Source of the DNA: Liquorilactobacillus nagelii DSM 13675
GTDB lineage: Bacteria; Bacillota; Bacilli; Lactobacillales; Lactobacillaceae
NCBI RefSeq assembly: GCF_019444005.1
Contig: NZ_CP049305.1
Span: 1 to 64,000, forward strand
DNA length: 64,000 nt
Direction of reading: 5' to 3'
Shown: positions 664 through 52,061 of the stretch, piece after piece
How the letters are laid out: the number at the start of each line of letters is the position of its first letter
How positions within the stretch are numbered: position 1 is the stretch's first letter
Program-made: the position numbers and the translations under genes
The notes under the pieces: model-generated
Seen by the model: the letters and a program-made list of their open reading frames with translations, nothing else
Database searches by the model: none
Told to the model about the DNA's origin: nothing

Positions 664-867
664 GACTAAGTTAATAGGCAAATTGGTCTATCATATAATA
701 ATATTAGATTAAGTGGGTCCGTTGCCAGACATAAACATATTGGGAAACTATATACAAATACGGCGAAGTACGAAAAACGCTGAAAAAGAATTAGTTGAAC
801 CTATTTTTGAAAAATACAAAGATAAATAATAAGCTGAAATGCCTTGCTACCCAATTTTTCATAGTCA

Positions 868-1140: not shown

Positions 1141-1550
1141 CGCAAGGGAAAAGACAATCATTGCCATTAAAGCTTCTTGCTTAATCTATTATACAGGGAA
1201 ATGGGGATAGAATAGTGTCTATGCATAATCAGCTTTCTTTAATCTTCGAGCCATAAATAGCCAAGCTATTAACGAAAACAACAGGACTATAAATACCGTG
1301 ATGTAACTCGTGTTTCCGTGATAAGTTAAAGATTCGATCCAAAAAAATTAAGACAACTAGGATATTCACGAGAAACCTTGTTTCCAGATGAAAAAACATT
1401 TGATGGTAAATACAGGGAAACGATAAATTCAATTAATAATTCGCACTAAGCTTAAAGGCCACTAGGGTATACCCTAATGGTCTTTTTTATTTCTGTGCTA
1501 TACTAGGAATTACAAGTGTTCATTAGAACTGTCCAAAAGGAGAATTGGAA

Positions 1551-2135
1551 ATGGCTAAAATCGGTTATGCGCGTGTGAGTTCCAAGGAGCAACATTTAGA
1601 TCGACAGTTAGCGGCTTTAAAAGACGTTGATAAATTATTTACGGATAAATTAAGTGGGGCTAACACTAATCGGCCAGAACTGCAAAAAATGCTGGCCTAT
1701 ATTCGTGAGGGTGATATTGTAATGGTCACTGAATTAGATCGTTTAGGCAGAAACAACCATGATTTGACTAAGATCATGAACTCCATTCAAAATAAGGTGC
1801 CACCCTAGATGTGTTGAATTTACCGTCCATGACAGGGATTGCTGACCCCAATTTACGTCAACTCATGACCAACCTCATTATTGAACTTTTAAATACCAAG
1901 CTGAAAGTGAACGTAAGCGGATCATCGAACGTCAGCAACAAGGCATTGCCCTGGCTAAACAACAAGGCAAATATCATGGGCGCAAACCCCAATACACCCA
2001 AGGCGATCCCCGCTTGCAACATGCTTTTAAGCTTTATCGAGCAGGCATGAGTGACATTGATGTGTCCCAAAATACAGGTATTAAACGGACGACCTTTATT
2101 CGATACCGTGTGAAATACGGTATTAAAAGAAAATA
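1551..2135 (+). pseudogene. Serine resolvase, frameshifted copy of 52062-52649
   Basis: The start and N-terminal catalytic region match the intact gene at 52062. A missing G near 1796 and a changed base run near 1889 break the frame. These are probably sequencing errors. Confidence 0.85.
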
Positions 2136-2163
2136 GGGCCCCCTTTTGGTTGGCGCTGGTCCG

Positions 2164-3842: not shown

Positions 3843-3907
3843 AGAAGGAGTATAGCCTTAACTGAAAGGGTCCCTATTTTCTTTACTTAATAAGTCTAAT
3901 TAAATTA

Positions 3908-4498
3908 GGTAGATTGCAAATTTAATCCGAATTTTGGACAAATTTGTCAGCATAACCTGATACGGTGTTTGCCAGTCGAGTATTTTAAGCGGTCGCTGGT
4001 TAATTTGGAGTAACGTCGTCGTTTAAATCTTGAGCACTAATGTGCTCAAAACGAGTCCCTTTAGGATAAAAATAACGTAAATTCCGATTAAAGCGTTCAT
4101 TACTACCACGTTCAGCTGGAGTATAAGCATGGCAGTAATAGGTCTTAATCCATATTGTGATTCGAGTGATACTAGCCCACTAAACTCAGTGCCACGGTCC
4201 ACAGTAAAGCTGTGCACCGGACCATTAAAGTGGTTAGGAACTTAGTTAGTGCTTCATTAACAGTCGCTGTCGTCCGATCTTTTAACCGGTATGCCCAAAG
4301 GAACCGTGATTTGCGATCGATTAAAGTTAATAAAACTGCCTTACTATGCCCACGAGGACCAACGACTGTATCTAGTTCAAAATCGCCGATGCGCTTACGT
4401 TGATTAATCATCATGGGACGCTGTTCAATTGATCGCCCCAAAGATTGATTATATTTGGATCGTTGGTCAACGTTACGCCGTTGGCGCACGCCATGTTC
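3908..4498 (-). mobile_element. Truncated IS30-family element (copy of 54429-55021)
   Basis: The left inverted repeat begins with GGTAGATTGCAAATTTAATC. The transposase catalytic part lies on the minus strand and carries extra indels (near 3935, 4020, 4150, 4227) absent from the right copy. It stops abruptly where the IS5-family element starts at 4499. Confidence 0.85.
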
Positions 4499-5353
4499 AG
4501 AAGCTGTCCAAGATCTATGATTTTTGATATACTTCTATGTAAAAAGCGAGTTTAAGCTATGAAAAATTATCCCAGCAATATTACTCGGCAACAATTTGAA
4601 TTAATTCGACCAGCTTTAGAAAATTTTCGTAAGCGAACTAAGCCTCGAAAATATGACCTCTACGAGGTCTTCTGTGCGGTCCTATATGTCTTGAAAACCG
4701 GTTGCCAACGGCGTCAAGTCCCCGGTGATTTCCCAGAATGGCGGTCAGTTTACAACTATTACAAAATTTGGTCAACTAAAGCTGAGCCTACGGCTGATTC
4801 TTTATTGGAACAAGTTTTAAAAAATTGTCATTGCTCGGCGAACTTACCAAGGACGTTCAGCTTTAACTTCCTTTATTATCGTTGACGCTCAGAGCGTCAA
4901 AAACACCGCTACTGCTGAAAACAAAGGTTACGACGCTGGTAAGAAAATCTCGGGGATTAAGCGCCATCTGGCAGTTGATATCAATGGCTTTCCGCAGGCA
5001 TTCACATGACGCGAGCGAACGTCTCTGATCGAGACGGGGCCAGTGCAATGATCGCTTTACATGCCATGCATTTACGCCAGGTTCAAAATGTCTTAGTTGA
5101 TGGTGGTTATTCAGGCGTTAATTTTCAGCTCGATGTAGCCAGTAATTTAAACGCAACCGTGCAGGTTGCGAAGCGCAATGAGTTGCATCGATTCGAAGTC
5201 ATGCCCCAACGTTGGGTAGTCGAACGATCTTTTAGTTGGCTAGAGAATTGTCGGCGACTTTGGAAAAATTGTGAGCGTCAATTAACCACCAGTCTGCAAA
5301 TGGTCGTTTTAGCGTTTTTAGCACTATTACTTAAGAGATTTTAGACAGCTTCT
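4499..5353 (+). mobile_element. IS5-family element (copy of 55022-55878)
   Basis: The ends are AGAAGCTGTC and GACAGCTTCT. One A is missing from the A7 slippery run near 4825 and one C near 5000, so the frame is less clean than in the right copy. Confidence 0.8.
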
Positions 5354-5355
5354 TA

Positions 5356-5657
5356 CAACTTTTAGTTAATAATATTAGAGAAAAAATTAGGGTAGCTGTC
5401 CCACCGAAGGGAGATCATGTTGTCACTCTATGTACTCAACAAAATCTTCAAATTTATTATGTAAAATCGAATGGTATAACTGATAATCGTGTTCGACATG
5501 TTACGAAAATTATTACCATCCATTTTTTATTAATAGCTATAATAATTCTAGGCTTTTTCCTTTTAGCCTTGTTTATTCTTAAGTTAAGAATAAATTACTT
5601 ACAAAGAACACAAGAATTGACAGATATACATGCAAAAATGCTAGTCGGGGAAAATAA
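5356..5657 (+). pseudogene. C-terminal membrane-protein fragment (copy of 55881-56183)
   Basis: This has the same orphan fragment with one hydrophobic segment as the right copy, with a missing A near 5636. It directly follows the right end of the IS5-family element. Confidence 0.55.
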
Positions 5658-5722
5658 CAGATTCCGTTCTTTTCCGTGTTATTATTGAGTCAAATCAATA
5701 TATAAGGTAGTGATTTTAATGC

Positions 5723-6283
5723 CCTCTCTTTTCCTGGTTTTCACAAAATCAAAGTCATAAATATGAATTTCAGCACAAATTACTTTGGTCTCCTAAATTA
5801 AATCGGAAACATGGTAGAAATCCCGGGTATGTAAACATGTCTCATGTCAGAAGAGGAGATATTATTTTTCATGTTTTTAACCAAAAGATTCATGCTGTAA
5901 GTGTTGCTAAATATGACGTTTATAGCTCCCCCAAGCCATTAGCATATGATGGAAATATTTGGGACGATGATGGTTGGAGGGTTGATTGTGATATGTATAA
6001 ACTTGAAATTCCCTTATCTGATCATCGAGAATGGTTAAATGCACATAAGGGTGAAGTCTTTGATAAGAATGGGCGATTAAAGCAACAATATCTTTTTGAA
6101 CTAAACCAAGAACAAAAAAATTATTTTTGGCATTTGATTCCAAGTAAACTAATGGAATCACTTTTGATTGATAGTACTACATCAACTACAAAAGTTCCAA
6201 ATTTAAGAGAAGTAGGTAAAAGTTTATCAAAAAAAAGAGTTATCGGTAATAACCAGATATGGATTCATGATCTCATTCAATGA
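5723..6283 (+). pseudogene. EVE-type domain protein with an N-terminal frameshift (copy of 56245-56808)
   Basis: An extra T near 5743 separates the first residues from the rest. From about 5760 to 6283 the frame matches the intact right copy. A sequencing error is the likely cause. Confidence 0.7.
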
Positions 6284-6302
6284 TCCTCGGAGGTGATTTT
6301 CA

Positions 6303-7319
6303 ATGTTATCCAACCAGCACTTTCAATCGACACCCGCGGTAAACTTCGACTTGCTCGCCTATACGATTGGTAGTTACCACTACAATTGGCATCCGCAAAT
6401 CGAATTATTTTGGCTCCTGCAAGGCCACGTGGAAGTCAACGTTGACGGCCGCCGGTATGATTTAAAAGCCAACGACTTAATTTTAATCAACACCAACTGC
6501 GGTCACGCCACGTTTGCCCTGGATCCAGAATGTCTGGCGCTGCGCTTACATATCGCCCCTGCATTCTACACCAGCCAAGGACTCGACTTGTCACACGGAG
6601 CTTTTCACCTAAACAGCGTGACAGCACCGCAACATCGCGACTACCAGACCATCCGGCAAATTCTGGCACAGCTCTATACGGGACTGCATCAATCAAGTTG
6701 GTCCGCATTCGAGCTAAACGCGGCCTATTTCCAGCTGACCAACTTGTTACATCATGACTTTTTTGACACTCAGGCAACGATTGCCTATCCACAGCCGAAA
6801 AAACAAAGCTCGCTCAGCCGGGTCATCGACAATCTCAATCAGCACTACGATCAGCCCGTCACGCTCGAATCGGCAGCCGCCATCAGTCACTACTCCACGG
6901 CCTATTTGTCCCGTATTTTTAAAGCTGAGCTCGGCATCAATTTTTACGAATACCTGACCCGCTGCCGCCTTCAACACGCGATTGCCGACTTGGAGGACCC
7001 TAATCTAAAAATTGCAGACGTTGCACCCAAAAATGGGTTCCAGGAGGTCAAGTCATTTAATTTGATGTTCAAACGGCATTTCGGTCAGACGCCTTCGAAC
7101 TACCGCGAGCACCTCTCAAATGGGCCGCGTTCAGCATTCAAACAACCACTGACGCCCACGCAAACCGCCTGGGTCCAAGCACAAATGACGCACTGGGCGC
7201 AACTGGCGACGGTCGATCAACTGAGTGCCTGTGAGAGTTGTGCTTACAAATTACACTTTGAAGAATACCAAGCACTCAAAACTAAGGTCACACAATTAAA
7301 AAATCTGCTCAATCAATAA
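6303..7319 (+). CDS. AraC-family transcriptional regulator, probable regulator of the tartrate genes
   Basis: This is a 338-residue cytoplasmic DNA-binding protein. The N-terminal ~130 residues look like the cupin sensor domain of AraC regulators, with the pattern NWHPQIELFWLLQGHVEVNV followed by a KANDLILIN strand. Residues ~175-275 hold the double helix-turn-helix (TLESAAAISHYSTAYLSRIF, then KIADVAPKNGFQEVKSFNLMFKRHFGQTPSNYR). A ~60-residue tail with two Cys (CESC) follows, which is unusual for the family and could bind metal. The GGAGGTGATTTTCA ribosome site precedes ATG 6303. The gene points toward ttdAB and ends in a strong terminator before it, so it is a separate unit. Control of ttdAB by tartrate is inferred from position only. 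The sequence is identical at 56828-57844. Confidence 0.9.
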   Translation: MLSNQHFQSTPAVNFDLLAYTIGSYHYNWHPQIELFWLLQGHVEVNVDGRRYDLKANDLILINTNCGHATFALDPECLALRLHIAPAFYTSQGLDLSHGAFHLNSVTAPQHRDYQTIRQILAQLYTGLHQSSWSAFELNAAYFQLTNLLHHDFFDTQATIAYPQPKKQSSLSRVIDNLNQHYDQPVTLESAAAISHYSTAYLSRIFKAELGINFYEYLTRCRLQHAIADLEDPNLKIADVAPKNGFQEVKSFNLMFKRHFGQTPSNYREHLSNGPRSAFKQPLTPTQTAWVQAQMTHWAQLATVDQLSACESCAYKLHFEEYQALKTKVTQLKNLLNQ

Positions 7320-7389
7320 TTAATGGCATAACAATTTTTGTGATAATGATTAGTCACACTTGTCGGTCCGAAATATGGATTTATCGCTC

Positions 7390-7440
7390 AGTACCAGTCT
7401 AATTCAGCATTTGCAACTGAATTAGACTGGTACTTTTTTG
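7390..7440 (+). terminator. Rho-independent terminator after araC
   Basis: A perfect 18-bp stem (AGTACCAGTCTAATTCAG and its complement) with a 9-base loop is followed by six T. It separates the regulator from ttdA. The copy is at 57915-57964. Confidence 0.9.
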
Positions 7441-7577
7441 TCATATCACATACCAGATTTGGTTGATTGCGTGGTTTTTCACAACGCCTCGTGCCGTCGA
7501 AGTCATCATCTAGCGGTTAGTCTGCGTGCCCAGGGTTGCCTAAAATGAAGCTGTAAATTGATAGGAGGAAATCAATC

Positions 7578-8510
7578 ATGGATACAATGACTTACGACTA
7601 TACCGAACCCACACTATCGACCAAGGGGCAGCGAATGCGTGACATCTTGGCCGACTACATTGCCCTCATCAGTCACCGCTTACCCGATGACGTGACGGCC
7701 AAACTCGAAGAACTCAGCAAAATTGAAGTCGATCCCTTACAAAAGCTCGTTTACGATACGATGATGGAAAATCAGTTACTCGCCAACAAGCTGCAGCGGC
7801 CGAGCTGTCAAGATACTGGGGCCTTACAATTCTTCATCAAATGTGGCGCCCAGTTTCCGTTACTCGGAGAATTGAACCAGATTTTAAAGGATGCCGTTTA
7901 TCGTGGCACGAAGAAGGCCCCGTTGCGGCACAACGCCGTTCAAACGTTCGACGAATACAATACTGGCATGAACATTGGTGACGGCATCCCGTCGATTTTC
8001 TTACGAGTCGACGGCAACGGTACGGACATTTCAATGTACGTTTACATGGCTGGTGGCGGTTGTACCTTGCCTGGCGCTGCCAAAGTGCTGATGCCCGGTG
8101 AAGGCTACGAAGGCGTCGTGCGGTTTGTCATGGATCGCATGACAAGCTATGGTATCAACGCTTGTCCACCATTACTCGTCGGCGTCGGCGTGGCAACCTC
8201 CGTTGAGACCGCCGCGTTGAATTCCAAACTCGCTTTGATGCGCCGCGTCGATAGTGAGAATCCAAATGCGAACGCCGCTAAGTTGGAACACCTCTTGGAA
8301 GACGGCATCAACCACATTGGGCTCGGGCCACAAGGCTTTGGTGGTCAAAAATCGGTCATGGGCGTCAACGTTGAAAATACGGCCCGGCATCCATCAACGA
8401 TTGGCGTCGCCGTCAGCACTGGTTGCTGGTCCCATCGACGCGGTCTCATTAACTTTGACCAAGATTTGAATTACGAATTACCACTGAACAAAGGAGTCGA
8501 ATTATCATGA
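7578..8510 (+). CDS. ttdA: L(+)-tartrate dehydratase, alpha (Fe-S) subunit
   Basis: This is the catalytic Fe-S subunit of a class I fumarase-type hydro-lyase. With TtdB it dehydrates L-tartrate to oxaloacetate in the cytoplasm. The 310 residues match the family length. Three conserved cysteines expected to hold the oxygen-sensitive 4Fe-4S cluster are visible: C77 (RPSCQDTG), C162 (GGGCTLPGAAK) and C283 (STGCWSHRR). A fumarase alpha subunit is the main alternative. The separate small beta subunit and the DASS transporter downstream favour tartrate. AGGAGG precedes ATG 7578, and the stop overlaps the ttdB start (ATGA), so translation is probably coupled. GC is visibly higher than in the AT-rich 16-24 kb part. 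The copy is at 58103-59035. Confidence 0.9.
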   Translation: MDTMTYDYTEPTLSTKGQRMRDILADYIALISHRLPDDVTAKLEELSKIEVDPLQKLVYDTMMENQLLANKLQRPSCQDTGALQFFIKCGAQFPLLGELNQILKDAVYRGTKKAPLRHNAVQTFDEYNTGMNIGDGIPSIFLRVDGNGTDISMYVYMAGGGCTLPGAAKVLMPGEGYEGVVRFVMDRMTSYGINACPPLLVGVGVATSVETAALNSKLALMRRVDSENPNANAAKLEHLLEDGINHIGLGPQGFGGQKSVMGVNVENTARHPSTIGVAVSTGCWSHRRGLINFDQDLNYELPLNKGVELS

Positions 8511-9118
8511 AAACTTATCATTTAACCACGCCCATCTCAGATGACGACATCAAAGACATTCGAATCGGCGACATCGTGTACCTGACCGGCTCACTCACGA
8601 CCTGCCGGGACGTCGCGCATCGTCGGTTAGTCGAAGAACACCGGCCGTTACCCGTCAACGTTACCGACCGTGCCATTTTACACGCTGGTCCAATCATCAA
8701 AGATCTCGGCGACGGCCACTATCAGATGGTTGCGGTCGGCCCAACCACGAGTATGCGAATGGAAAAATTCGAAGAAGCCTTTGTCAAGGAAACTCACGTT
8801 AAGTTGATCGTTGGTAAGGGTGGGATGGGCTCGGGGACAGAACGCGCCTGCAAAAAATATCACGCTCTCCATCTGGTTTATCCCGCAGGTAACGCGGTAT
8901 ACGCTGCGCTGCACGTTGAAAAAATCGTTGATGCACAGTGGAAGGACCTCGGCATGCCCGAAACACTCTGGGCGTGTGAAGTCAAAGACTTTGGCCCGCT
9001 GATCGTCTCGATCGATACGAACGGTGACAACTTGTTTGAGAAGAACAAAGTCATTTTTAATGAACGCAAGGAAGCCGAAATCAAGAAAATCAACGAACAA
9101 GTCAAATTTATCAAATAA
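8507..9118 (+). CDS. ttdB: L(+)-tartrate dehydratase, beta subunit
   Basis: A 203-residue protein of the Fumerase_C family, the partner of TtdA in the dehydratase heterotetramer. The signature stretch GKGGMGSGTERACKKYHALH lies at residues ~105-125, followed by the PAGNAVYAA segment typical of the swivelling domain. It overlaps ttdA by 4 bp with AAAGGAG just upstream. A short GC-rich hairpin (GCGCCCCC with its near-complement around 9123-9165) follows the stop. The copy is at 59032-59643. Confidence 0.9.
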   Translation: MKTYHLTTPISDDDIKDIRIGDIVYLTGSLTTCRDVAHRRLVEEHRPLPVNVTDRAILHAGPIIKDLGDGHYQMVAVGPTTSMRMEKFEEAFVKETHVKLIVGKGGMGSGTERACKKYHALHLVYPAGNAVYAALHVEKIVDAQWKDLGMPETLWACEVKDFGPLIVSIDTNGDNLFEKNKVIFNERKEAEIKKINEQVKFIK

Positions 9119-9187
9119 GGATTGCGCCCCCGTCACAGTGGCTGTCATCGCCGTGCCGGGGGCGTCACTCAAAGGAGGTTATTTTTC

Positions 9188-9509
9188 ATGATTAAGACAA
9201 GACCACCATTTAAGGAAGCAGCGTTAACCGCCTTACGAACCGTCATCGACCCCCGAACTTGGCGTTAACATCGTCGACCTGGGGTTAATTTACGACATTG
9301 CTTATGACGCCGACCTTCAACTGTGCACCGTCACGATGACGCTCACCATTATGGGCTGCCCATTGACGGGCTATCTGGACGACCACATCAAGGCAGCACT
9401 AAGCGCGTTGAATGATGTTGACCAGGTGCTCATTAATCTTGTCTGGGAACCCGCATGGTCAGTCGCTAAGATGTCACAGGCTGCCAAGCTAGAACTCGGT
9501 TTACAATGA
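9188..9509 (+). pseudogene. DUF59 / MIP18-type Fe-S assembly protein, frameshifted
   Basis: ATG 9188 follows AAAGGAGG. The first 23 codons read to ...VIDP, then a run of five C (near 9250) shifts the frame into a stop. Removing one C restores a complete ~107-residue DUF59 protein with ...DPELGVNIVDLGLIYDI and TMTLTIMGCPLT, ending at TGA 9507-9509. DUF59 proteins (SufT/MIP18/PaaD relatives) help assemble or insert Fe-S clusters. Placed after an Fe-S dehydratase, it may serve TtdA. Both copies of the repeat have the same C5, so it may be real, a slipped-strand switch, or a systematic homopolymer error. The copy is at 59713-60034. Confidence 0.75.
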
Positions 9510-9663
9510 CATGTCTACTCTGAGGACCGATTGGCTAGTCGAACATTCAGATATGACCAAACTACTGGTAAGTATCTCAATTGTGATTGATATCGCACAG
9601 CTTGACCGAGCCAGTTCAGACTAGCGTGCCTCAGCTGAAGTTAATTGAAAGGCGGTTTTACGT

Positions 9664-10425
9664 ATGTCACATTTGAATCCAGTCAACTATCGAAAACTCA
9701 TTTGGCCGCTCAGTTGTGGCCTGATACTTTGGCTGGCTGCCCCTCTGCGTCCAAGTGATTTGAGTTTGCTCGGATGGCAAATGTTGGCAATCTTTGTCAG
9801 TACGATCATCGGGTGTATTACCCAGCCGTTGCCCATCGCTGGGGTGGCAATCATCGGCTTGACCTGTTGTGTGCTATTAGGCGTCACGCCGATTGATACC
9901 GCGATTGCAGGATTTGGTGATAGTACGGTCTGGATGATCGCGATGGCCTACTTTTTATCTTGCGGTTTTGTCAAAACGGGTCTGGGTCGGCGAGTCGCGT
10001 TAGTGTTCGTCAAATGCTTCGGCAAACGAACACTCGGACTGGCCTACGCACTAATTGGTGTGGACTTAGTCACGAGTCCCGCGACACCGAGTAACACGGC
10101 GCGTGCTGGTGGCATCGTCTTTCCGATTATCGAATCGCTAGCCAAAGCGTACGGTTCCGACCCGCAAGAAGGGACCCAGCGCAAAATCGGCGCGTTTCTC
10201 ATGATGACCGCCTTTCATGGCAACATCGCAACCAGCGGTCTATTCATGACAGCCATGGCGCCCAACCTAGTCGCAGTTGCTTTAGCGGCCGCTCTGCACG
10301 TTCATATTACTTGGACTGGCTGGCTGCTGGCCGCCCTGCTGCCCGGTCTCATCAGTCTGATTTGTGTGCCTGCTATCATTTACAAACTTTATCCACCTGA
10401 AATCAAAGATACGCCGAACGCCTAA
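9664..10425 (+). CDS. DASS-family anion transporter, N-terminal half (probable tartrate/succinate antiporter)
   Basis: A 253-residue integral membrane protein. It has hydrophobic segments throughout and family motifs such as ITQPLPIAGVAIIGL and the first substrate loop ATPSNTARAGGIVFPI (SNT motif). Family members have ~450-500 residues with two inverted halves; this one stops after YPPEIKDTP, so the second half, including its matching SNT-type motif, is missing. It is probably non-functional unless halves pair, and may be a recent deletion. It would have imported tartrate or exchanged it for a dicarboxylate. GAAAGGCGG precedes ATG 9664. The copy is at 60189-60950. Confidence 0.8.
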   Translation: MSHLNPVNYRKLIWPLSCGLILWLAAPLRPSDLSLLGWQMLAIFVSTIIGCITQPLPIAGVAIIGLTCCVLLGVTPIDTAIAGFGDSTVWMIAMAYFLSCGFVKTGLGRRVALVFVKCFGKRTLGLAYALIGVDLVTSPATPSNTARAGGIVFPIIESLAKAYGSDPQEGTQRKIGAFLMMTAFHGNIATSGLFMTAMAPNLVAVALAAALHVHITWTGWLLAALLPGLISLICVPAIIYKLYPPEIKDTPNA

Positions 10426-10515
10426 TCCTGATCCACCTGGAACTCCCATGAGCCCTTTCGTCTGTGTGCTTTATCGGCACTGGCTAACTTACTATTGCAA
10501 TTTGCGTAAGCCTAA

Positions 10516-10557
10516 AAAATAAGGAAGTTGGCCTGATTGGTCAACTTCCTTATTTTT
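10516..10557. terminator. Bidirectional terminator between transporter and DUF305 gene
   Basis: A 13-bp perfect stem (AATAAGGAAGTTG / CAACTTCCTTATT) is flanked by A-run on the left and T-run on the right, so it can serve the two convergent genes. The copy is at 61041-61082. Confidence 0.85.
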
Positions 10558-10563
10558 TATCAG

Positions 10564-11013
10564 CTATTGATCGGCAACTTTTTTCAATAATCGTTTCATC
10601 TCCGTGATCTCTTCACGTTGCGTTTTAGCGATCTTCTGTGCGAGGGCTTTGACTTCCGGATCGCTGAGTTGCGCGCGTTCACTGGTTAGAATCGCGGTCG
10701 AGTGATGGGGGATCATTTCTTGCAACCAAGCTGCATCGTGCACGGTCGCTTGGCTACGAACTAGATAAAGCGAGCCAGCAAATATCACCGCACTACCAAG
10801 TAGGATCAGGCGGTTCAAACGTTTATTCTGGTACATTGACCACATGAATAACAGCATTACAATGGCCATGGTGGCGCCCATAATTAGCGCCATATACAGT
10901 CGCGTTTGGCTTAGAAAAATATCATCTAATTGGAACACATTAAGGTACATTAACCCATACATAATAACTGTAGAGACAAGAATCATCAGTAAAAATTTCG
11001 TGTATTGTTTCAT
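10564..11013 (-). CDS. DUF305-type membrane protein
   Basis: About 149 residues from ATG 11013, chosen because GAGGAGGACGTC sits directly in front; a longer open frame upstream lacks a ribosome site. Three membrane segments cover residues ~7-85. They are followed by an external or cytoplasmic helical domain with WLQEMIPHHSTAILTSERA, the DUF305 hallmark (MIPHHxxAI). DUF305 proteins are often near metal or copper genes and the His pair could bind metal, but function is not established. It ends convergent with the truncated transporter. The copy is at 61089-61538. Confidence 0.8.
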   Translation of the reverse strand: MKQYTKFLLMILVSTVIMYGLMYLNVFQLDDIFLSQTRLYMALIMGATMAIVMLLFMWSMYQNKRLNRLILLGSAVIFAGSLYLVRSQATVHDAAWLQEMIPHHSTAILTSERAQLSDPEVKALAQKIAKTQREEITEMKRLLKKVADQ

Positions 11014-11124
11014 GACGTCCTCCTCGCTTTCGCTGGCTTTATTTTGACTATAACAAAAAAAATAGGGTAGCGTCAAGAATCTTGTGTAAATGAAATGCCT
11101 TCGTACATATAATATGTATCTAAC

Positions 11125-11373
11125 TTAAATAAATGATGCTTCCAAGGTGTCCTGGAGTCCTTTGAACCCTCGGTGGATCCGCTTCAGAGACTTCTCGTTA
11201 TAAGCATTAAACTGAGAAACCAGGAAGCGATCCAGTGAATCTTCCGTTGGAAATTGTTCTTTGTGGTGGGTGGTGCGCTTGAGATGCTTGTTAAAGTTCT
11301 CAATCAAGTTAGTGGAGTAGAGTGATTGCCGAACGGCTGGTGGAAAGTCCATGAAAGTGAGCAGATTCGGCAT
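11125..11373 (-). pseudogene. IS256-family transposase, C-terminal fragment
   Basis: 82 codons. They carry the third part of the IS256 transposase with the STNLIENFNK..RT motif and probably the final catalytic Glu. It is separated from the main part by one frameshift. Confidence 0.85.
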
Positions 11374-11438
11374 TTTAAGCAGATCTTTGATTAACTTGGG
11401 ATAGGTACGATGCCAGTTGTTGGCGAACTCATTCAGTT

Positions 11439-12299
11439 TCAGTTCGGCTGCTTCACGATTGGCAGCTCGATGAACTTGTTTAAGTCATTGATCACGGCCT
11501 TACGGTCTTTCACACGAACTTTGTTCATCAAATTACGCCCAACATGAACCAGGCAACGTTGTCGTTTGGCTTTAGGGAAATGCCGATTCAAGCCTTCATC
11601 CAAACCAACTAACCCATCGGCCACAAACAACAGCACATCTTTAACGCCCTGCTTGATCAAGGTTCCCAGCAGTTCAGTCCAGATTCCAGTCGATTCCGTT
11701 GGCGCCACTTGGTAGTTCAGCACTTCTTTCGTACCATCTGGACGAATGCCAATCGCAATATGAACGGCTTCTTTTTGAACGGTATCCCGCTTTAACGGCA
11801 AGTAAGTGGCATCTAAGAAGATGGCCGCATATTGTGAAGCCAGTCGACGTTGCTGGAAAGCTTGAACCTGTTCATTGACGGCTTTAGTCATGTTGGAAAC
11901 CGTGGCTTTGGAGTAGTGAGCACCGTACATTTTCTCAATGAGTTCGGCAATTTCAGCAGTGGTAATTCCCTTGGTATACAACTGAATGACCGTTGTTTCT
12001 AAATTATCACTGTGCCGACCGTAGGCTGGCAAGGTATGATTTTCAAACCGGCCATTGCGATCTCGAGGAATGGTTAAGTTAAGTTGGCCGTACTTCGTAT
12101 CAAACGAGCGCTCATAACTGCCGTTGCGGTTATTACCAGTGTTAATCCCAGCGTATGAGTAGCGTTCGTAACCCAAAAACTCTGCCAATTCGGTTTGAAG
12201 CAGCTGGTTAATCGCAATTTCGAGGTGGTGACGAAAAACTTCGTCCAAATCTTGCTTTTGGGCTAGTGCAGCGATAATTTCTGTGGTAAGTTCATTCAT
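11439..12299 (-). pseudogene. IS256-family transposase, N-terminal two thirds
   Basis: Residues 1-280 match Mutator/IS256 transposases, including two of the acidic catalytic positions expected in LDATY and VADGL. The frame is lost after DLNKFIELPIV, and the correct sequence (ANREAAELKLNEFANNWH) is found in another frame. The gene starts just inside the IS end, with GGAGGCATTCCCC before ATG. Confidence 0.85.
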
Positions 12300-12404
12300 G
12301 GGGAATGCCTCCTGTGATGTTTTCTGTGGTTACTAAATATCATAAGGGAAGGCATTCCCTATTTCTATACAATTCAGAAATCTTTTATGCATTTACACAA
12401 GATA

Positions 12405-12883
12405 TTTTACGCTCTCTTTTGTTTACAAAATTCAACTATTTGAGTTTTTATGTTGATTAGATCTATAATAAAGTTTAGATGGGGGTAAGTATAATATAGA
12501 TTCTTTAGTTTCTGTATTGTCATATCAGTTCAACAACCATTTGGATAAGGTTATTGTACCTTTATTTTTTTTATTATTTAAATAATGCCATTCTTATGTA
12601 TCCAACTAGCCATAAGTAAACTATTTTCTTTGTTGATAAAATGAAAGCCGGGTGAATTTTAAAATCGAGTTCTGCATTTGTTTGAAACAAAATCACATAC
12701 CTTAGCTGTCTGTACTTTTGTTACAACTGCATTATTGTGTTTTAAATTTTTTATAATTAACAAATGCGGTGTAACTATTTTTAGAATTTTTAAGTTAATT
12801 AACAATTACTGACTCACTAATACAACTTATTTAAGATTACATCAGATTAATGTTGGCTTCATAAAATGAAAGGATGAATTATC
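12405..12883. other. AT-rich intergenic stretch
   Basis: No convincing gene was seen between the IS256 end and the glycosyltransferase. It is AT-rich with many T runs. AAAGGATGAATTATC directly before GTG 12884 is the ribosome site. A promoter could lie near 12820-12850, but no clear -35/-10 pair stands out. Confidence 0.6.
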
Positions 12884-13978
12884 GTGAAAATAACATTAAT
12901 AACACAGTATTTAGAGGGACATGGCGGTACCGAAAGAGTCATTTCGAACTTGGTCAACGAAGATTTAAAAAATGAATATCAGGTTTTGATCCCTAAAAGC
13001 GGAAAACCTGAATGGCTCCAATGGATTACACGTACTACCGGCTACCAACTTAAAATTTGCCATGCACAAGATACACAAGCACAAAAAGAGTTTATTGAAA
13101 AAAATGTTTTAGCAGCAGAACCAGATATCGTTTTGGGACTCGAAGGCAGAGCTTGTGTAACTGCCTATCAGATCAGGAAAAAATATGACCTTCATTATAA
13201 AATTGTTTCTTGGGGACATACCTCCATTGCTGAATCAAACATTTTTGCTCGTCAAGAACTTGCTTTCTCAGAATATCATCTTGCAATTAGTACAGGGATA
13301 AAAAAACAGTTGATCAAACTCGGGGTCCCAGCCCAAAAAATCTTTCTGATCTATAATCCTATCCGCACTGTAAATAAGAAAACAATCAGCACACCTAAAG
13401 CTAACGCTCCTTTCCATGCAATTTTTATTGGAAGAATATTGTTGGATGATCAAAAAAATGTACGTATGCTTCTTGAATCAATGGCACAGCTTAATATTCC
13501 TTGGAAACTGGACATCTTTGGCAAGGGAGCTGATCTTCCAAAAGCAAAAACATTAGCAAATGATTTGCATATTTCACAAAACATTAACTGGCAAGGTTGG
13601 ATGCCTAATCCTTGGGAAGCAATTAATGAAGCTGATTGCCTGCTGCTCTGTTCAAAATATGAGGGATTCCCAATGGTTGTTATTGAAGCTGCTTCTTATG
13701 GCTTGCCAATTGTTTCAACAAACTGTCCTACTGGACCGGCAGACATCATTAATTCCCACAATGGAATTTTAACTCCAATGAACGACCAAAAAGCTTTTAT
13801 AGCTGCATGCCGGCAAATCTATCGTTTGCGTGGTAAATATAATCATACAGATATCAAAAAAACAGTTTTGAAATTTGATATTTCTCGCTATATTAAGCAC
13901 ATAGAAAACATCTATAACTTAATTGCTGCTGATAATAAAAACACAGATAAATCAGCCATTAAACTTTCTTCTTTATAA
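12884..13978 (+). CDS. GT4-family glycosyltransferase
   Basis: A 364-residue GT-B fold retaining glycosyltransferase. The N-terminal Rossmann half starts MKITLITQYLEGHGGTERVISNL with the Gly-rich GGTER loop. The C-terminal half has the group 1 glycosyltransferase signature: AIFIGRILLDDQKNVRMLLES, then the EX7E region YEGFPMVVIEAASYGLPIVST, where two Glu contact the donor sugar nucleotide. It starts at GTG. Such enzymes build poly- or exo-polysaccharide or glycolipid; the acceptor cannot be told. It stands alone between two insertion sequences, so it looks like the survivor of a broken polysaccharide cluster. The copy at 63409 is cut by the window end. Confidence 0.85.
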   Translation: MKITLITQYLEGHGGTERVISNLVNEDLKNEYQVLIPKSGKPEWLQWITRTTGYQLKICHAQDTQAQKEFIEKNVLAAEPDIVLGLEGRACVTAYQIRKKYDLHYKIVSWGHTSIAESNIFARQELAFSEYHLAISTGIKKQLIKLGVPAQKIFLIYNPIRTVNKKTISTPKANAPFHAIFIGRILLDDQKNVRMLLESMAQLNIPWKLDIFGKGADLPKAKTLANDLHISQNINWQGWMPNPWEAINEADCLLLCSKYEGFPMVVIEAASYGLPIVSTNCPTGPADIINSHNGILTPMNDQKAFIAACRQIYRLRGKYNHTDIKKTVLKFDISRYIKHIENIYNLIAADNKNTDKSAIKLSSL

Positions 13979-16208: not shown

Positions 16209-16302
16209 GCTGATTTTTAATCAACTCAACAACTAATGCGATTAAGGCCACGATAAAAGTACCGAAAGCCAGCATTAATTGTAAAGCGTCCGAAACGGAC
16301 AC
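16198..16302 (-). CDS. Hol_Tox-like small hydrophobic type I toxin (locus B)
   Basis: A 34-residue peptide starting at GTG 16302 with AAAGGAG eight bases before it. It begins MSVSDALQLMLAFGTFIVAL, followed by one membrane helix and a basic tail (KNQQKK). This fits the 'putative holin-like toxin' group of type I toxins, which insert into the membrane and depolarise it when their antisense RNA is lost. The gene ends in the terminator hairpin shared with the convergent RNA. The GTG start is unusual among the three loci here. Confidence 0.75.
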   Translation of the reverse strand: MSVSDALQLMLAFGTFIVALIALVVELIKNQQKK

Positions 16303-16534
16303 TTGGGCTACTCCTTTCCTAGAATGTGAGTTTATAGTTTTTACACCATAAGCACCACCCCCTTTAAGGAAATAGTCACCGCCTTAACTTCTCTACTTGA
16401 ACTATTATACAGGATAACTAGTAATTTACCTATTGATGATTAATGTTATATTACCTTAATAGGCATTGAAACATTGCATTTAAGTTTTATTGTGTATAAC
16501 GATGTTACACAAATTAAATCGGTGGTGGTTTAAA

Positions 16535-17326: not shown

Positions 17327-17605
17327 TTATTTTTCATTTTGTTTTAACATAAGCAGGATCGTTTCTTTTTGCCGTTGAGAAACATTATTATCCAAGTAGG
17401 TTTTACACATCTGATTAACTAAATCGTACATCTTAGTATCGGTAACGACAGACATACTTTTAATTAAGTCATATACAGGTGGATCAACCTTAATGGTCTT
17501 TCGTTCGTTAGCCTTATATTCTTTTTTGATTGAAAGATTTCTGCTAACATCGGCAGTATTTTTGATGTTTGGTTGAACATTGTTATCCCTCTTCAGTAAA
17601 GCCAC
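17327..17605 (-). CDS. Small ribbon-helix-helix partition partner (ParB/omega-like)
   Basis: 92 residues. The N-terminus is unstructured and polar; residues ~35-75 (RKTIKVDPPVYDLIKSMSVVTDTK..) look like a ribbon-helix-helix DNA-binding fold. It overlaps parA by 23 bp and lies downstream on the same strand, the usual place for the centromere-binding partner of ParA in type Ib systems. It should bind the repeat array upstream of parA and repress the operon. Confidence 0.7.
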   Translation of the reverse strand: MALLKRDNNVQPNIKNTADVSRNLSIKKEYKANERKTIKVDPPVYDLIKSMSVVTDTKMYDLVNQMCKTYLDNNVSQRQKETILLMLKQNEK

Positions 17606-18488
17606 TAAGCGTCAGCCCCTTTCCTTTTTCAGTGAGCCTATTATTATTAATAAATTCATGTTCATATTTAAAATCTACGACATCACCAGTTTTTTCAAAA
17701 GATTTGATTCTTAATAATAATTCTTTGAATATATCTGCATATAGTGCAAAAATTCTTTTATCATGAAAGTCTTCAAATTGAATTCCTTGTGCTGTGTACC
17801 ATTCCAATCTAGCATGATTGTTAATAATGTTATTAAATACGTTATCACGGCCAAAATATTTTATGGTTTCATCAACTATTTTTTGCTGTAAAGGTCTACG
17901 CGCCTGTAAAAGAACTGGCAAGACACCAGCAACTTGAACATTAATCATATTCCCAAAATCATTTACCAAAGTTTGTAAATATGTAAGAATAAGACGCTTT
18001 GATCCATCGAAAGCAAATTGTTGTGTCTCTTGAATAACAATAACATAGTCGGCACAAACCATAGCATTATCGACTTTAATATCTGTGGAAGGTGGAACAT
18101 CAATGAAAATAAATTCATAGTTATCTTTGATCTGATCTAAAAGTTTTTTTAAATAGAAGGTCTTATCTGTTAATGATTTAAACTTTTTATCCAGGAATTC
18201 GGTATAGTTACGCATGTCATAGTCGCACCCAATTAAATCTATCTTCGGAGCTAAGTGTACAATTCCTTGCGACAGGTCTTCTTTTTCCAAGCAGGCCATT
18301 AAAGTGTTTGGAATTTCAGGATTTCCGAAAGTCTTTGATAAAAACTGAGTTGCATTCCCCTGTAGATCTGTATCTATGACTAACACTTTTTTATTAAATA
18401 CGGTGGCGGCCACTACTGCTTCCATTACTGTGTCTGTTGTTTTACCTACGCCACCCTTTTGTTGAGCGTTAATTATTGTATACGTCAT
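17583..18488 (-). CDS. parA: ParA-family partition ATPase
   Basis: 301 residues. The deviant Walker A KGGVGKTT lies at residues ~11-18, followed by VLVIDTDLQGNATQFL (Walker A') and FIFIDVPPSTDIKVDNAM (Walker B region). Actin-independent ParA proteins bind DNA nonspecifically in the ATP state and pull plasmid copies apart. It has no N-terminal helix-turn-helix, as expected for type Ib. It starts at ATG 18488 and faces away from the repeat array. Confidence 0.9.
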   Translation of the reverse strand: MTYTIINAQQKGGVGKTTDTVMEAVVAATVFNKKVLVIDTDLQGNATQFLSKTFGNPEIPNTLMACLEKEDLSQGIVHLAPKIDLIGCDYDMRNYTEFLDKKFKSLTDKTFYLKKLLDQIKDNYEFIFIDVPPSTDIKVDNAMVCADYVIVIQETQQFAFDGSKRLILTYLQTLVNDFGNMINVQVAGVLPVLLQARRPLQQKIVDETIKYFGRDNVFNNIINNHARLEWYTAQGIQFEDFHDKRIFALYADIFKELLLRIKSFEKTGDVVDFKYEHEFINNNRLTEKGKGLTLSGFTEEG

Positions 18489-18576
18489 TTAGACACCTCC
18501 ATTAAATACATAGTAAGTCAATTTTATTTAAAAGTAAAGTAAAATGTAGTAAATCTCCTTTATACTTGTTTATCAA

Positions 18577-18837
18577 AAAGAGAAAAAGAGATTATGCTCC
18601 TAAGAGAAAAGGAGAAAAAGAGATTAATCTCCTATTCTCTTAGTACCTTAAGAGAAAAGGAGATTAAGAGAATAAACACTATAAAAAGGCCTTCTAATCA
18701 ATAATAATAATTTAAAAAGGAGAAAAAGAGATTAAGAGAAAAAGAGATTAGTGTAAAAAGAGATTAAGAGAAAAGGAGAATAGTGTACTAAGAGAAAAGG
18801 AGAATAGTGTACTAAGAGAAAAGGAGAATAGTGTACT
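18577..18837. repeat. Purine-rich direct-repeat array, candidate centromere (parC) or iterons
   Basis: Three exact 24-bp units stand head to tail at 18766-18837; each starts AAGAGAAAAGG and ends TAGTGTACT. Upstream there are many degenerate copies of the core AAGAGAAAARGAGATT at 18577-18765, some in inverted form. The array lies about 90 bp upstream of parA, where the partner protein of ParA should bind. Iterons for a replication initiator are the alternative, but no initiator gene adjoins it. Confidence 0.8.
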
Positions 18838-18870
18838 AAATTATCAAAAGGTGATTTTTTGCATAATAGC

Positions 18871-18899
18871 TTTACACTAGAGATGAAAAGGAGTAATCT
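18871..18899 (+). promoter_or_regulatory. Possible promoter of the structured RNA
   Basis: TTTACA (18871-18876), a 17-bp spacer and TAATCT (18894-18899). The -10 is poor. It would place the start near 18906, directly before a very stable hairpin. An internal promoter cannot be excluded. Confidence 0.3.
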
Positions 18900-18907
18900 A
18901 TAAATAA

Positions 18908-18943
18908 CAAAAAGAAGCTTATCTATTGATAGATAAGCTTCTA
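18908..18943 (-). terminator. Hairpin with minus-strand T-run (terminator, or 5' cap hairpin of the plus RNA)
   Basis: A perfect 13-bp stem (AGAAGCTTATCTA / TAGATAAGCTTCT) with a 4-base loop. Read on the minus strand it is followed by TTTTTG, as in an intrinsic terminator for leftward transcription. On the plus strand it lacks a T-run and could protect the 5' end of a long RNA. Confidence 0.65.
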
Positions 18944-20117
18944 CATAAAAGAAAAAGCCACCCAATATTGGCGTATTGGAATGACCCGAACTAAGTCTTT
19001 ATTTATGGTCTCATTGTAGCACATTTTACTAGTGTGTTCAATGTGGTGATTTTCAAAACTCAGGAGACAAGCTGAGTAGTAGGTTAGTAGTACATAGGTT
19101 TCATATTTCGATATGCGACAGCTGCTTATGGATGAACGCTAAAAAGTAGACATCTGGTGAACTCAGCCAGAACTTCACAAAAATAATTGAGTAGTCTATG
19201 GATTCTGTAATCTGATCTGTAGGCTGGGTTCAGAGCCGACCTGCAGACATAGAAGCTGCTGACTAATGGCTAGAGTGGTAACATGAATGGAGTCTTAACA
19301 TACAGTAAGGGCATGTTTTTGCTGGTGAGTAAAAAACTTAATTGTTAAGATAGCTGTAAGAAGCTGAAACTAGATTACTTGTGAGTGAAGCGAGGGGAAA
19401 CCTCAAAAACTGAGCTGCACGTTATTTTTTTGTTTTTCTCTGCAAAATTAAGGGAAAAACTTTGCTCATATCGCTTCAGGCTTCCTAAAAACTAAGCCAG
19501 CCAAGAACAGAAGTCAACTAAAGGTATTCATATTTATTGAATAACTTGTTAAGAATGTAAGTGAGGTTTCAAAGTAGGGGATTTGAAATTCACAAGTTCA
19601 GAAAGTTAGGTTAATAAGAATCTTGCGAAGTAAAATAACTATACCAATTTTAGTTAAGAAATTGGTAAAATTAGTAAGTTGATTTTAAGTTGCTGAGTAG
19701 GGTAGTTGCGAGTATACAGCGGTATACTTAGATTAAGATGCATTATGTAAATTAAAAAGTTTTTTAACTAGTAAACATGCATGTTAATATATAAAAACAC
19801 CAGGATAACTAAATCCCAGTATTTTTGTATCTACTTCTTGTTATTTCTAAATATCAAGTATATGATAAATAGTTGAATAACTAGAGAAACAGATAAAGTA
19901 AATGTTACTTGCAAAGCGTAGCATACAGTTTAATTAAAGGCAACCAGCCTTGTGTTGTAGCCATTTACCAGTATAGCATACTGGACTTGATAGCTATGAA
20001 ATGATAATACGTAGGTAAGGTAAATGGAAAACAAGGGGTTTTATCCTTTTAAGTGGACTTAATCAACCCACGTCACTCACGGGCTCTCAGACTTAACTCT
20101 CTGAGGGCCTATTTTTT
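18944..20117 (+). ncRNA. Candidate giant structured non-coding RNA (~1.1-1.2 kb)
   Basis: No open frame of useful length exists, but helices are dense. They include ACTCAG/CTGAGT (19058-19077); TCTGTAGG/CCTGCAGA (19216-19247) stacked on CTATG/CATAG (19196-19252); GAGGGGAAACCTC, a GNRA-like hairpin (~19392-19404); GTGAGGTTTCAAA with TTTGAAATTCAC (19561-19593); TACCAATTT/AAATTGGTA (19642-19667); AGTATAC-AGCG-GTATACT (19711-19728); and CCATTTACC/GGTAAATGG (19961-20027) enclosing CCAGTAT/ATACTGG and itself enclosed by CCTTGT/ACAAGG (19948-20036). Several helices contain G-T pairs that would be A-C mismatches on the other strand, so the RNA should be plus-strand, and it ends at a strong plus-strand terminator. 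Size and plasmid setting resemble ROOL/GOLLD-type giant RNAs and the abundant long RNA of a Ligilactobacillus salivarius megaplasmid; identity is not established. Confidence 0.55.
20081..20117 (+). terminator. Rho-independent terminator of the structured RNA
   Basis: A 10-bp stem GGGCTCTCAG / CTGAGGGCCT (two G-U pairs) with a 10-base loop is followed by ATTTTTT. The wobble pairs and the T-run both fix it to the plus strand, where no protein gene lies upstream. Confidence 0.85.
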
Positions 20118-20148
20118 GTATTAATTTTCTTTTATTTACCTCATGGTT

Positions 20149-25245: not shown

Positions 25246-25559
25246 ACTAAATTGGAGTTAGCATAAGAAAGAGTAAAGAAGAACTAGCTGCAGCTTATTT
25301 TTTAATATTAGAAAGAAAAGATACAAACGACTTCTCACAAGGACAATTTCAAGATGAACGTCAAAAGCTTTTCAATATTCAGCATAATAGTGAACTAACA
25401 GATTAAGAGAAATGGCGTGCAACGGATAAAGTTAAGGGACTACCACTAGGGTCCATTGAAAAACAAGCTTTAGCTGAACAGCAGATTGAACACGATAAAA
25501 AGATCAGAGATCAAGCGAGACAAGAAGCACTTGCTGAACTCCGAAAGGGTTTGGAAATA
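25246..25559 (+). pseudogene. Degraded open frame upstream of the DUF536-like gene
   Basis: A frame reads GVSIRKSKEELAAAYFLILE and on to QHNSELTD, then a TAA at 25404-25406. It continues without break (EKWRATDKVKGLPLGSIEKQ...) into the DUF536-like gene. The charged helical sequence looks like the C-terminus of a plasmid protein whose front is gone, perhaps replaced by the resolvase. No replication-initiator domain can be recognised in it. Confidence 0.45.
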
Positions 25560-26039
25560 ATGCCTAAAACTATTAGAGAACTTGCTAACGAATTTGGTGT
25601 ATCAAAACAAGCCATTAGGAAAAAACTAGATGCAAACTTTAGAGCAAACTATGTGCAAACAGTTCCTAGGAACGGAGTACAAACCTTAGTTGTCAGTAAC
25701 TCAGGATATTTGCTGTTAAAACAACATTTTGGTGGTAACAACCAGGAACTTGGAAAGGAAACATTTACTAGTAACACTGGTAACATAAGTATAAATACAA
25801 TAGAATTGCTCAACCAGCAATTATTAACCAAGGATAACCAAATTAAAGAAAAAGATGAACAAATAAAATTAATGCAAAAATTATTGGATCAGTCACAACA
25901 ATTGCAATTGATGGCTGAAAAGAAAATTGAAAAATTTGAGGCTATTCCTTCTGAAAAATATTCGGTTGATAAAAATATTAATGCTAATGATATAGAGAAC
26001 AAAAGTTTGAAGTCTCGCTGGTGGCATTTTTGGAAATAA
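25560..26039 (+). CDS. DUF536-like plasmid replication-associated protein
   Basis: About 159 residues. The N-terminal helix-turn-helix is MPKTIRELANEFGVSKQAIRKKL, followed by a linker, a coiled coil (residues ~85-125, INTIELLNQQLLTKDNQIKEKDEQIK) and a W-rich tail (KSRWWHFWK). Proteins of this build often follow the initiator gene repB on theta-replicating lactobacillus and lactococcal plasmids and affect copy number or host range. Here the initiator itself is missing. Six bases after the stop an IS3-family element begins. Confidence 0.7.
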   Translation: MPKTIRELANEFGVSKQAIRKKLDANFRANYVQTVPRNGVQTLVVSNSGYLLLKQHFGGNNQELGKETFTSNTGNISINTIELLNQQLLTKDNQIKEKDEQIKLMQKLLDQSQQLQLMAEKKIEKFEAIPSEKYSVDKNINANDIENKSLKSRWWHFWK

Positions 26040-34912: not shown

Positions 34913-36973
34913 ATGGCAATATTTCATATGAGTTTTAGTAATATTAGTGCTGGTAAAGGACGCAGTGCCATTGCCAGTGCCGCTTATCGAAGTGGTGAAA
35001 AATTATTTGATAATCAAGAAGGTCGCCGATATTTCTATGCCCGATCGGTAATTCCAGAAAGCTTTATTTTGACCCCAAAAAATGCACCAGCATGGGCCAG
35101 TGATCGAGAAAAATTATGGAATGAAGTAGAAAGAAAAGATCGGCGAGCAAATTCTCGGTATGCAAAAGAATTTAACGTGGCTTTGCCAGTTGAATTAAGT
35201 GAATCCGAACAGAAAGAATTACTGACAAAATATGTGCAAGAAAATTTTGTCGATCAAGGTATGGTAGCTGACGTAGCAATTCATCGCGATCACCCAGACA
35301 ATCCGCATGCACATGTGATGTTAACCAATCGCCCATTTAACCCCGATGGTAGTTGGGGATTAAAAGCAAAGACGCAGTACATTAAAGATGAAAATGGCAA
35401 GCAACTTTTAACCAAAAGCGGGTTTCCAAAACAAAGAAAAATTTGGTTGGTTGATTGGGATAAAAAGGAAAAAATTAATGAGTGGCGAAAAAATTGGGCG
35501 TTGAGTGTTAATCAGTTCTTAGCACAAAAAAATATTCCGGATCGGATTAGTGAAAAATCGTTTGTCGATCAAGGGATTCAAGAGACACCTACCCAACACG
35601 AAGGCATTAACAGCCAAAGAAAAAATCGAAAAGCATTTAATCAACAAGTTAGAGCGCAAAGAAACGCTCAAGCTAAATATCATAATCTTGACGAAAAGAT
35701 AAGAAATCATGAACATTTTGACGCGTTAACTGACGAGCTATTGTTCTCTGAAAAACACACAATTAGTCATCTAAGTCAGCAATTGAAAACCTATGTCGAT
35801 TTAGAACATTTAGATGATAAACAGCGCATGCTGTTTAATTGGAAAAACAGCTTATTAATCAAACATGCCATTGGTGAAGATATAACCAAGCAACTGCTGA
35901 CTATTGACCAGCAAACGACATCACTAGAACAAGCTAATCAGTTGTTAAATAAAGTGGTGGAACGAGCAACGAAAAAGCTTTATCCGGAACTTAATTTTGA
36001 ACAGACAACCGCAGCTGAACGACGGGAACTGATTAAAGAAACTAATAGTGAACAAACGATTTTCAAAGGTAGCGAATTGGCAGAACGGTTAGCGGATATT
36101 CGAAACGACTTATTAACCCAGCAATTATTGACGTTTACCAAGCGGCCATATACCAGCTGGCAGTTAGTTAATCAGCAAGCCCAAACAATTGAGAAGCAAT
36201 TAACCACGGTACTAGCCAAACATGGTCACCAGTTAGACGATTTGAAGCATACTGATCGGGGCATGCTAGCCGCTTATCAACCTAACGAACTCGAATTCAT
36301 TTCTAAAGCGGTCAAAGATTTACGGGTCATGCGGGAAGTTAAAGCCGTGGTGCAAACCCAATACGACAGCATTCTAACGACTGCTTTTCCGGACAGTGAC
36401 CTCGATAAGCTAGAGACGATTGACAAGGAGCAAATCTATACCGCTGTGGTTTACTATGATCCAGAATTAAAGCCATTAAGCGCCAATGATCTTAGTCAAT
36501 TGCAACAGCAGCCACCGGTCGTCTTTACTAGTCAGCAACACCAAGCTGGTTTGAATTACCTGTTAGGTAAAATGGAATTAAAAGATATTCAGAACCACCG
36601 ATTACAACGGGTCTTAAAACATGATGGCACTCGGCAACTGTTTATCGGCGAATGTGGCCAAGATCCTAAGTTGGATCACAAACAAATTGAAATGGTGCAA
36701 ACCCGTTTGAAACAACAGACAACGCGGTTTGATCAATATAGGCAGGCTCAAGTTAAAGACTATCGGGCCATTAATTACCACCCAACTAGCCCGAAAAACT
36801 ACCTGACTAATATTTTGGACGAAGCCTTAATAACCATTTTATATGCGAAGAACACGGACTATCTAAGAAAGCAGCAACTACGTGGCTTAAAAGAGACCGA
36901 GTGGGCAATGACGAAAAAGCAGCGGCAACATCAAACTCGAAACCGGCATGAAGATGGGGGCATGCACTTGTAA
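34913..36973 (+). CDS. mobA: MobQ-family relaxase (MobA/MobL)
   Basis: About 686 residues from ATG 34913; GTG 34904 is an alternative. AAAGAGG lies upstream. The N-terminal relaxase domain has the early [27 protein letters not shown] and the metal-binding motif [18 protein letters not shown], in which His residues hold the ion used to nick oriT. The C-terminal ~400 residues are helical, of unknown job, without a clear primase or helicase motif. No type IV secretion genes are present, so the plasmid is mobilisable, not self-transmissible. Confidence 0.85.
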
Positions 36974-51169: not shown

Positions 51170-51283
51170 GACTAAGTTAATAGGCAAATTGGTCTATCAT
51201 AATAATAAATATTAGATTAAGTGGGTCCGTTGCCAGACATAAACATATTGGGAAACTATATACAAATACGGCGAAGTACGAAA

Positions 51284-52055: not shown

Positions 52056-52061
52056 TTGGAA

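Follow-up and report, generated by a model that had tools for sequence, protein, structure and literature searches.

Gene context and the two elements beside parA

The DNA analysed here (64,000 nucleotides, hereafter the window) is taken from a contig of 76,180 b, one of two that make up the genome. Bases 1–13475 are repeated at 50504–64000 with 99.8% identity, meaning that features there occur twice, and this terminal repeat makes it probable that the plasmid is circular, measures about 50.5 kb and lies wholly inside the window. Its close relatives are Liquorilactobacillus plasmids (seven PLSDB records with element A, described below), and the nearest named one, L. mali LM596 NZ_CP045036.1, has 98% identity across the region. 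The features of the region are:

17327–17605, minus strand: small parB-like gene downstream of parA (ORF list; prgO on NZ_CP045036.1)
17583–18488, minus strand: parA, read away from element A (ORF list; prgP on the sister plasmid NZ_CP045036.1)
18590–18840, strand unassigned: AT-rich direct repeats, AGAGAAAAGGAGA-like, found by reading and self-matches; putative partition site or iterons
18871–18899, plus strand: candidate promoter TTTACA-17-TAATCT, weak (score 8, shuffle p 0.88)
18905–19780, plus strand: element A, located upstream of parA; a structured RNA locus put forward as sense RNA and origin region (5′ end estimated)
18912–18943, minus strand: hairpin 1, which would come first in the proposed sense RNA and resembles an intrinsic terminator on the minus strand
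18948–18990, minus strand: hairpin 2, with a variable loop and a minus-strand T-run (GTCATTCC..GGGTGGCTTTTTC), proposed antisense terminator
19013–19041, minus strand: TG-extended promoter TTGAAC-17-TACAAT, from which the predicted antisense RNA would be read (promoter scan)
19059–19205, plus strand: conserved core, part of model R1 (19050–19205), with a CAGGAGACAAGCTG hairpin, AGTAGACA plus a covarying hairpin, and CTTCACAAAAATAA
19432–19460, plus strand: GTTTTTCTC...GGGAAAAAC hairpin, possibly an origin or primosome hairpin
19790–20120, plus strand: element B, a dispersed structured element of about 330 nt with its own terminator (split from A by BLAST and nhmmer)
20081–20117, plus strand: intrinsic terminator at the end of B (terminator scan)

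The first-pass annotation of this DNA had read the stretch to the right of parA as one giant RNA of 1.1–1.2 kb, without a useful open frame and closed by a strong plus-strand terminator. We found no ORF of at least 50 amino acids on either strand in 18966–20148, as it had said, and a single ORF, 18732–18965 (−), reaches the left edge of the gene-free stretch. The terminator, placed at 20081–20110, is present as well. However, BLAST and nhmmer found A (18941 to about 19780) and B (19790–20120) apart in other genomes, which rules out a single 1.2-kb RNA and makes the terminator part of B. What is retained from that interpretation is a large, structured RNA of the plus strand that falls outside known families, while the 1.2-kb unit turns out to be the junction of two independent elements.

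In the same searches A sits beside parA on plasmids, on its upstream side and divergent from it, with one further fragment on a 294-kb contig. B is present in several copies in some Liquorilactobacillus genomes, on both plasmid-like and chromosomal contigs (L033–L036, L042, L045–L049), and often lies within about 100 nt 3′ of the stop codon of an unrelated ORF. The parA–corA interval of one genome (G003) holds A and one B, followed by a second B before corA. The fold of B has 43 pairs, 8 of them with two-sided changes among 11 sequences, and its window copy has no Rfam match. B is probably a 3′ element or a small RNA, and would be a separate element that landed beside A.

Structure of element A and its antisense unit

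An alignment of eight sequences covering 18930–19800 was folded with RNAalifold, giving a consensus of 154 pairs in 23 helices with 94.6% of cells paired; the predicted helices span 18951–19543, and DNA homology of A extends to about 19755–19780. The strong structure claimed at first pass was far above chance in the fold and shuffle tests on this alignment. Both sides change in 40 of the 154 pairs, a number that none of 500 shuffles reached. Covariation, a check the annotation had proposed for homologues, was 0.271; shuffles gave 0.151 ± 0.008, again with none of the 500 reaching the observed value, and slid controls gave no more than 0.078, a comparison that favours A over the slid controls as structure and test come from the same alignment. 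Among the five measures, that of further pair types was ordinary, 45 of 500 shuffles scoring as high. The plus strand, also proposed earlier, scored better in nine of nine scanning windows, and over 700 columns it reached −228 as opposed to −185 for the minus strand (covariation bonus included); a giant RNA on the minus strand was rejected by these scores. The long-range helices 19145–19151/19513–19519 and 19174–19180/19379–19385 are nearly invariant; they fit the fold and are little tested by variation.

Of 15 loci, 12 have an upstream plus-strand promoter scoring at least 9.5 in about the same position; in the window, L034 and L082b it falls below that score. The weak promoter in the window was counted against reading A as a Rep-less origin. 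In L081 (scan) and in L083 and L109 (both by eye), the sense RNA would stop at a plus-strand terminator after some 400–460 nt, and antisense-modulated attenuation is thus a fair sub-model. Further to the right, the hairpin at 19432–19460 resembles by eye a GTTTTC..AAAACAAGGGGAAAAC hairpin that follows A in Leuconostoc and occurs in pLP9000-type plasmids, though the Leuconostoc motif has no BLAST match in the window. A AAAGTTTTCTTCTTC[CG]CAAAACAAGGGGAAAACT hairpin, likewise downstream of A in Leuconostoc and also on pLP9000-type plasmids, may be an origin or primosome hairpin; pLP9000 (NC_003894.1) has no Rep_3 match even though this A-associated hairpin is present. One R1 match, in G310, was treated as false, being surrounded by phage-like ORFs on inspection by eye.

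Inside A lie a conserved minus-strand promoter and terminator that were absent from the first-pass annotation. Leftward from the promoter, hairpin 2 comes before hairpin 1, and the minus strand of hairpin 2 ends in GGCTTTTTC. The predicted antisense RNA would run from about 19006 to about 18945 or 18905, making it roughly 60–100 nt long and placing it in the 5′ domain of A. The promoter scores at least 9.5 in 59 of 60 aligned modules (the exception is L136) with a spacer of 17, or 18 in L137. It stands 21–24 nt from the module end in 45 of these and 5 nt from it in 14 L109-type copies, which have a deletion of about 16 nt. Single-locus shuffle p values range from 0 to 0.08, and the conservation is partly explained by homology.

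The antisense stretch is also where related copies differ. Within the first 65 nt, 26 of 64 columns differ among the 14 L109-type copies, as opposed to 35 of 434 further on (Fisher p = 2e-10), and columns with at least three letters number 10 and 3, respectively. The 65-nt border was set with the alignment already in view, and the copies are not all distinct (L111, L149 and L152 share their hairpin). In some copies the loop is changed to its reverse complement; two L. brevis SC013 plasmids, for instance, carry CGGGAA and TTCCCG. Identical hairpins occurred in 1 of 20 co-resident pairs and in 40 of 1750 other pairs, which is no clear depletion and no test of incompatibility, the 14 co-residence sets including one made of two elements on one contig.

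Distribution of element A and the search for an initiator

A model of the antisense-bearing module, R2, was built from 14 sequences. It matched 42 of 397 Lactobacillaceae genomes, in 12 of 40 genera, and 11 of 395 Lactobacillales genomes, a sample that overlaps the first. A ParA-like ORF with a Walker motif lies near 34 of the 37 R2 loci opened, a number that includes repeats of one locus (L114 is the locus of the window; L116 and L118 are that of L108). The exceptions are L105, L107 and L115. The last of these lies close to the edge of its contig, and at L107 a ParA-like ORF is present, the motif being absent from the part that was read; L107 is also the only one of the weak matches (about 34–40 bits) without a motif-bearing ParA-like ORF. 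Two contigs carry more than one copy. G514:C1, of 1 Mb, has three modules at 784511, 857634 and 930757 with a period of 73,123 b (a tandem plasmid or an assembly artefact), and G174:C1 (110 kb) has two A elements at 26330 and 31595, two different ParAs and a Rep_3 gene (a cointegrate or multireplicon). A gene for a BRCT-domain protein of 92–93 amino acids recurs downstream of A in several genera (L094 11535–11816, L141 9984–10262 and, by eye, L112 2084–2362).

In PLSDB, besides the seven Liquorilactobacillus records, 366 records carry L109-type A, with coverage of at least 80% in 346 of them. L083-type A matches 243 records, 75 from Leuconostoc and 160 from Lactiplantibacillus, and 70 cover at least 80%; among the matches listed, those in Lactiplantibacillus share only 34–47 nt.

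We looked for a replication initiator on 16 complete A-plasmids, namely that of the window, W01, W02, W04, eight from Leuconostoc and four of L109 type. The profile search across A-plasmids was made with RepA_N and Rep_3 and was joined by gene tables and a shared-protein test. The gene tables of 15 named A-plasmids and parts of those of W03 and W05, which in PLSDB are incomplete, listed no initiator other than 'replication-relaxation' and DUF536 proteins. Neither RepA_N nor Rep_3 rose over the cut-off on any of five Liquorilactobacillus sister plasmids or in the window's own genome, RepA_N was found on none of 12 further A-plasmids, and Rep_3 on none of a further four and a further eight. Ten window proteins gave no Rep by Pfam, the DUF536 match falling below the cut-off. 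This DUF536-like gene (25551–26039) has no Rep_3 gene beside it. Out of 1992 ORFs on the 16 plasmids, only ParA has a homologue on all 16, followed by IS30-type transposases on 15, and the ORFs of at least 60 amino acids on the 16-kb plasmid NZ_CP042398 include no plausible Rep. In the eight Leuconostoc plasmids, A (about 650 nt) is the only stretch longer than 85 nt common to all by BLAST; the four L109-type plasmids have other common stretches too, the longest around mobilisation genes. Cumulative GC skew was equivocal: of 15 complete plasmids, only 5, two of them near-identical, have the minimum at most 700 bp from the centre of A (KS p 0.067 on 12 plasmids).

A proposed antisense-controlled origin

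We consider it likely that A is a Rep-less theta replication region under antisense control with a ColE1-like layout. This draws on the computed structure of the sense strand, the antisense promoter and terminator-like hairpins, the ParA neighbourhood, ParA as the sole shared protein and the variation in the antisense stretch. Both RNAs would be made. The structured sense RNA would start near 18905, upstream of and divergent from parA, and run rightwards through the origin. The short antisense RNA would run leftwards from 19041 and pair with the first 100 nt or so of the sense RNA through the variable-loop hairpins, holding copy number down as RNAI does on RNAII, and the hairpins may set incompatibility. 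Whether the sense transcript or its read-through would also prime replication is close to an even call, since the primer role is assigned by analogy.

ColE1 has no Rep, and its RNAI is a short antisense to the 5′ end of the long RNAII. A resembles this class B theta system in having no plasmid-encoded Rep by the RepA_N and Rep_3 profiles, gene tables and shared-protein test, and in its predicted layout, where a short antisense would face the 5′ end of a long structured RNA; promoter, terminator and hairpin variation suit such a pair. Unlike ColE1, it has no Rfam match and is found on Gram-positive, par-bearing plasmids. For the RNAI family of Rfam, neither the window nor any of 19 further loci gave a row at gathering score. 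No Rfam family reached its gathering score in A, and at E ≤ 10 the interval 18490–20148 had sub-threshold rows only, the best being RefA9 at 18883–18941 (E 0.0042, 34.6 bits, gathering score 49). The pLS20 replicon is presumably flanked by a rap-like gene. The best R2 match on the whole of pLS20 (23.6 bits, E 0.029) lies away from that gene and gives little support for homology of pLS20 to A. This class E theta plasmid of Bacillus is described, in the portions of the sources available, as having a replicon of about 1.1 kb without a typical rep gene (PMC9743546, PMC4490491). No RNA-based replicon of the kind proposed here is described in the available portions of the literature surveyed.

Another comparison is offered by pTE15 of Limosilactobacillus reuteri, for which the accessible text reports a 1311-bp HindIII–BamHI minireplicon without an essential Rep, its 'RepB' resembling an AAA-family ATPase (PMC9743546). 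HindIII at 5410 and BamHI at 6715 on NZ_OP744582.1 fit this minireplicon. Inside it, in the expected orientation and divergent from the AAA ATPase gene at 6602, is a weak R2 match (5973–6103 minus, 21.8 bits, E 0.028), and a sister plasmid 79% identical over the region gives 26.8 bits (E 0.0028). Constructs RRdelta5, lacking HindIII–SacI, and RRdelta6, lacking SacI–PvuI, gave no growth under selection according to the same part of the paper (PMC9743546), and the RRdelta6 deletion (5543–6526) covers the R2 match. Like A, pTE15 has about 1.3 kb of non-coding DNA upstream of an AAA/ParA gene, with inverted repeats and no essential Rep. It is unlike A in that its sequence is very diverged and that the text available describes DnaA boxes, iterons and repeats and speaks of no RNA pair; its module has no antisense promoter at the scan threshold. 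Chloramphenicol lowers the copy number of pTE15, as stated in that text (PMC9743546), unlike ColE1.

Several other explanations have to be weighed against an antisense-controlled origin. RepA_N or pIP501-type plasmids control copy number through antisense RNA against a 5′ leader, and it is possible, if unlikely, that A works in this way in RepA_N plasmids, as the leader or attenuator of a rep gene that follows it, and is a relic or trans-acting element in Rep-less ones. A is like these leaders in its predicted antisense to the 5′ leader and in having a terminator further down (seen by scan in L081, by eye in L083 and L109). In G222, A lies between parA and a RepA_N gene with a plus-strand terminator about 690 nt before the gene, in L117 a RepA_N-like ORF directly follows the module, and on pL11822-3 (NZ_CP018179.1) a weak RepA_N-like remnant after A (36891–36956, E 0.0095, below the cut-off, two stops) is possibly a fossil rep gene. 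As G222, L117 and G174:C1 have Rep genes, the module occurs with Rep as well, which speaks against a Rep-less reading. With that said, a RepA_N-like ORF is near just 2 of the 37 R2 loci (contig G174:C1 also has Rep_3), and the 16 complete plasmids, unlike RepA_N or pIP501-type plasmids, have no RepA_N or Rep_3 gene over the cut-off, yet L109-type A is near-identical in 366 records.

We find it rather improbable that A serves partition, as a parA regulator or centromere at the RNA or DNA level, with replication by an unknown Rep elsewhere. ParA is the one protein on all 16 complete plasmids and is read away from A where checked; however, it differs between loci while L109-type A stays 96–98% identical, the 16-kb plasmid has no candidate Rep among its ORFs, and by restriction sites the pTE15 minireplicon holds only the first 110 bp or so of parA. 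The first-pass annotation had likened the region to the ornate RNAs ROOL and GOLLD, which like A are large structured RNAs on mobile elements, and its size, multi-domain fold and plasmid location would suit a giant ornate or other stable RNA with no role in replication. The sections available also report that deleting a L. salivarius lncRNA lowered megaplasmid copy number (PMC5643018). We think such an RNA highly improbable here. ROOL and GOLLD gave no row in the window at gathering score and none in 18490–20148 at E ≤ 10, and 28 further loci had no Rfam match except one Bacillus-plasmid RNA elsewhere in L082. Their setting is phage or prophage, often near tRNA islands, in the part of the source available (PMC12286853), whereas 18940–20148 has no match at E ≤ 0.01 in 50,697 phage records and adjoins parA. 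The parA neighbourhood, the embedded antisense unit with variable hairpins, the missing Rep and the pTE15 minireplicon all point instead to a replication or copy-control locus.

If A is an antisense-controlled origin, it would name what replicates plasmids without an initiator and offer an explanation of the Rep-less pTE15 minireplicon, and it would provide a non-coding origin of about 500–900 bp with a predicted copy-control RNA. Many plasmids of 16–70 kb from food lactic acid bacteria have no annotated initiator and no RepA_N or Rep_3 match; pWCFS103 and pLEUM1 are two of those inspected. Vectors built on the pWCFS103 replicon were reportedly described by van Kranenburg in 2005. In the available part of its description, pLL441-6 has no recognisable replication protein (PMC9820265). 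We would put it at about an even chance that these plasmids belong to a large unrecognised class of Gram-positive Rep-less plasmids with an RNA-primed origin and a sense/antisense pair, in which the antisense hairpins diversify as incompatibility tags, their loops sometimes swapped for the reverse complement, and the cassette moves between ParA systems.

Elsewhere in the window, RatA-type antitoxin RNA matches lie at 873, 16082, 38304 and 51382 (+) and at 16236–16418 (−). An rli28 match adjoins one of them, and the sister plasmid has an annotated holin-like toxin near the corresponding site, which together suggests type I toxin–antitoxin loci.
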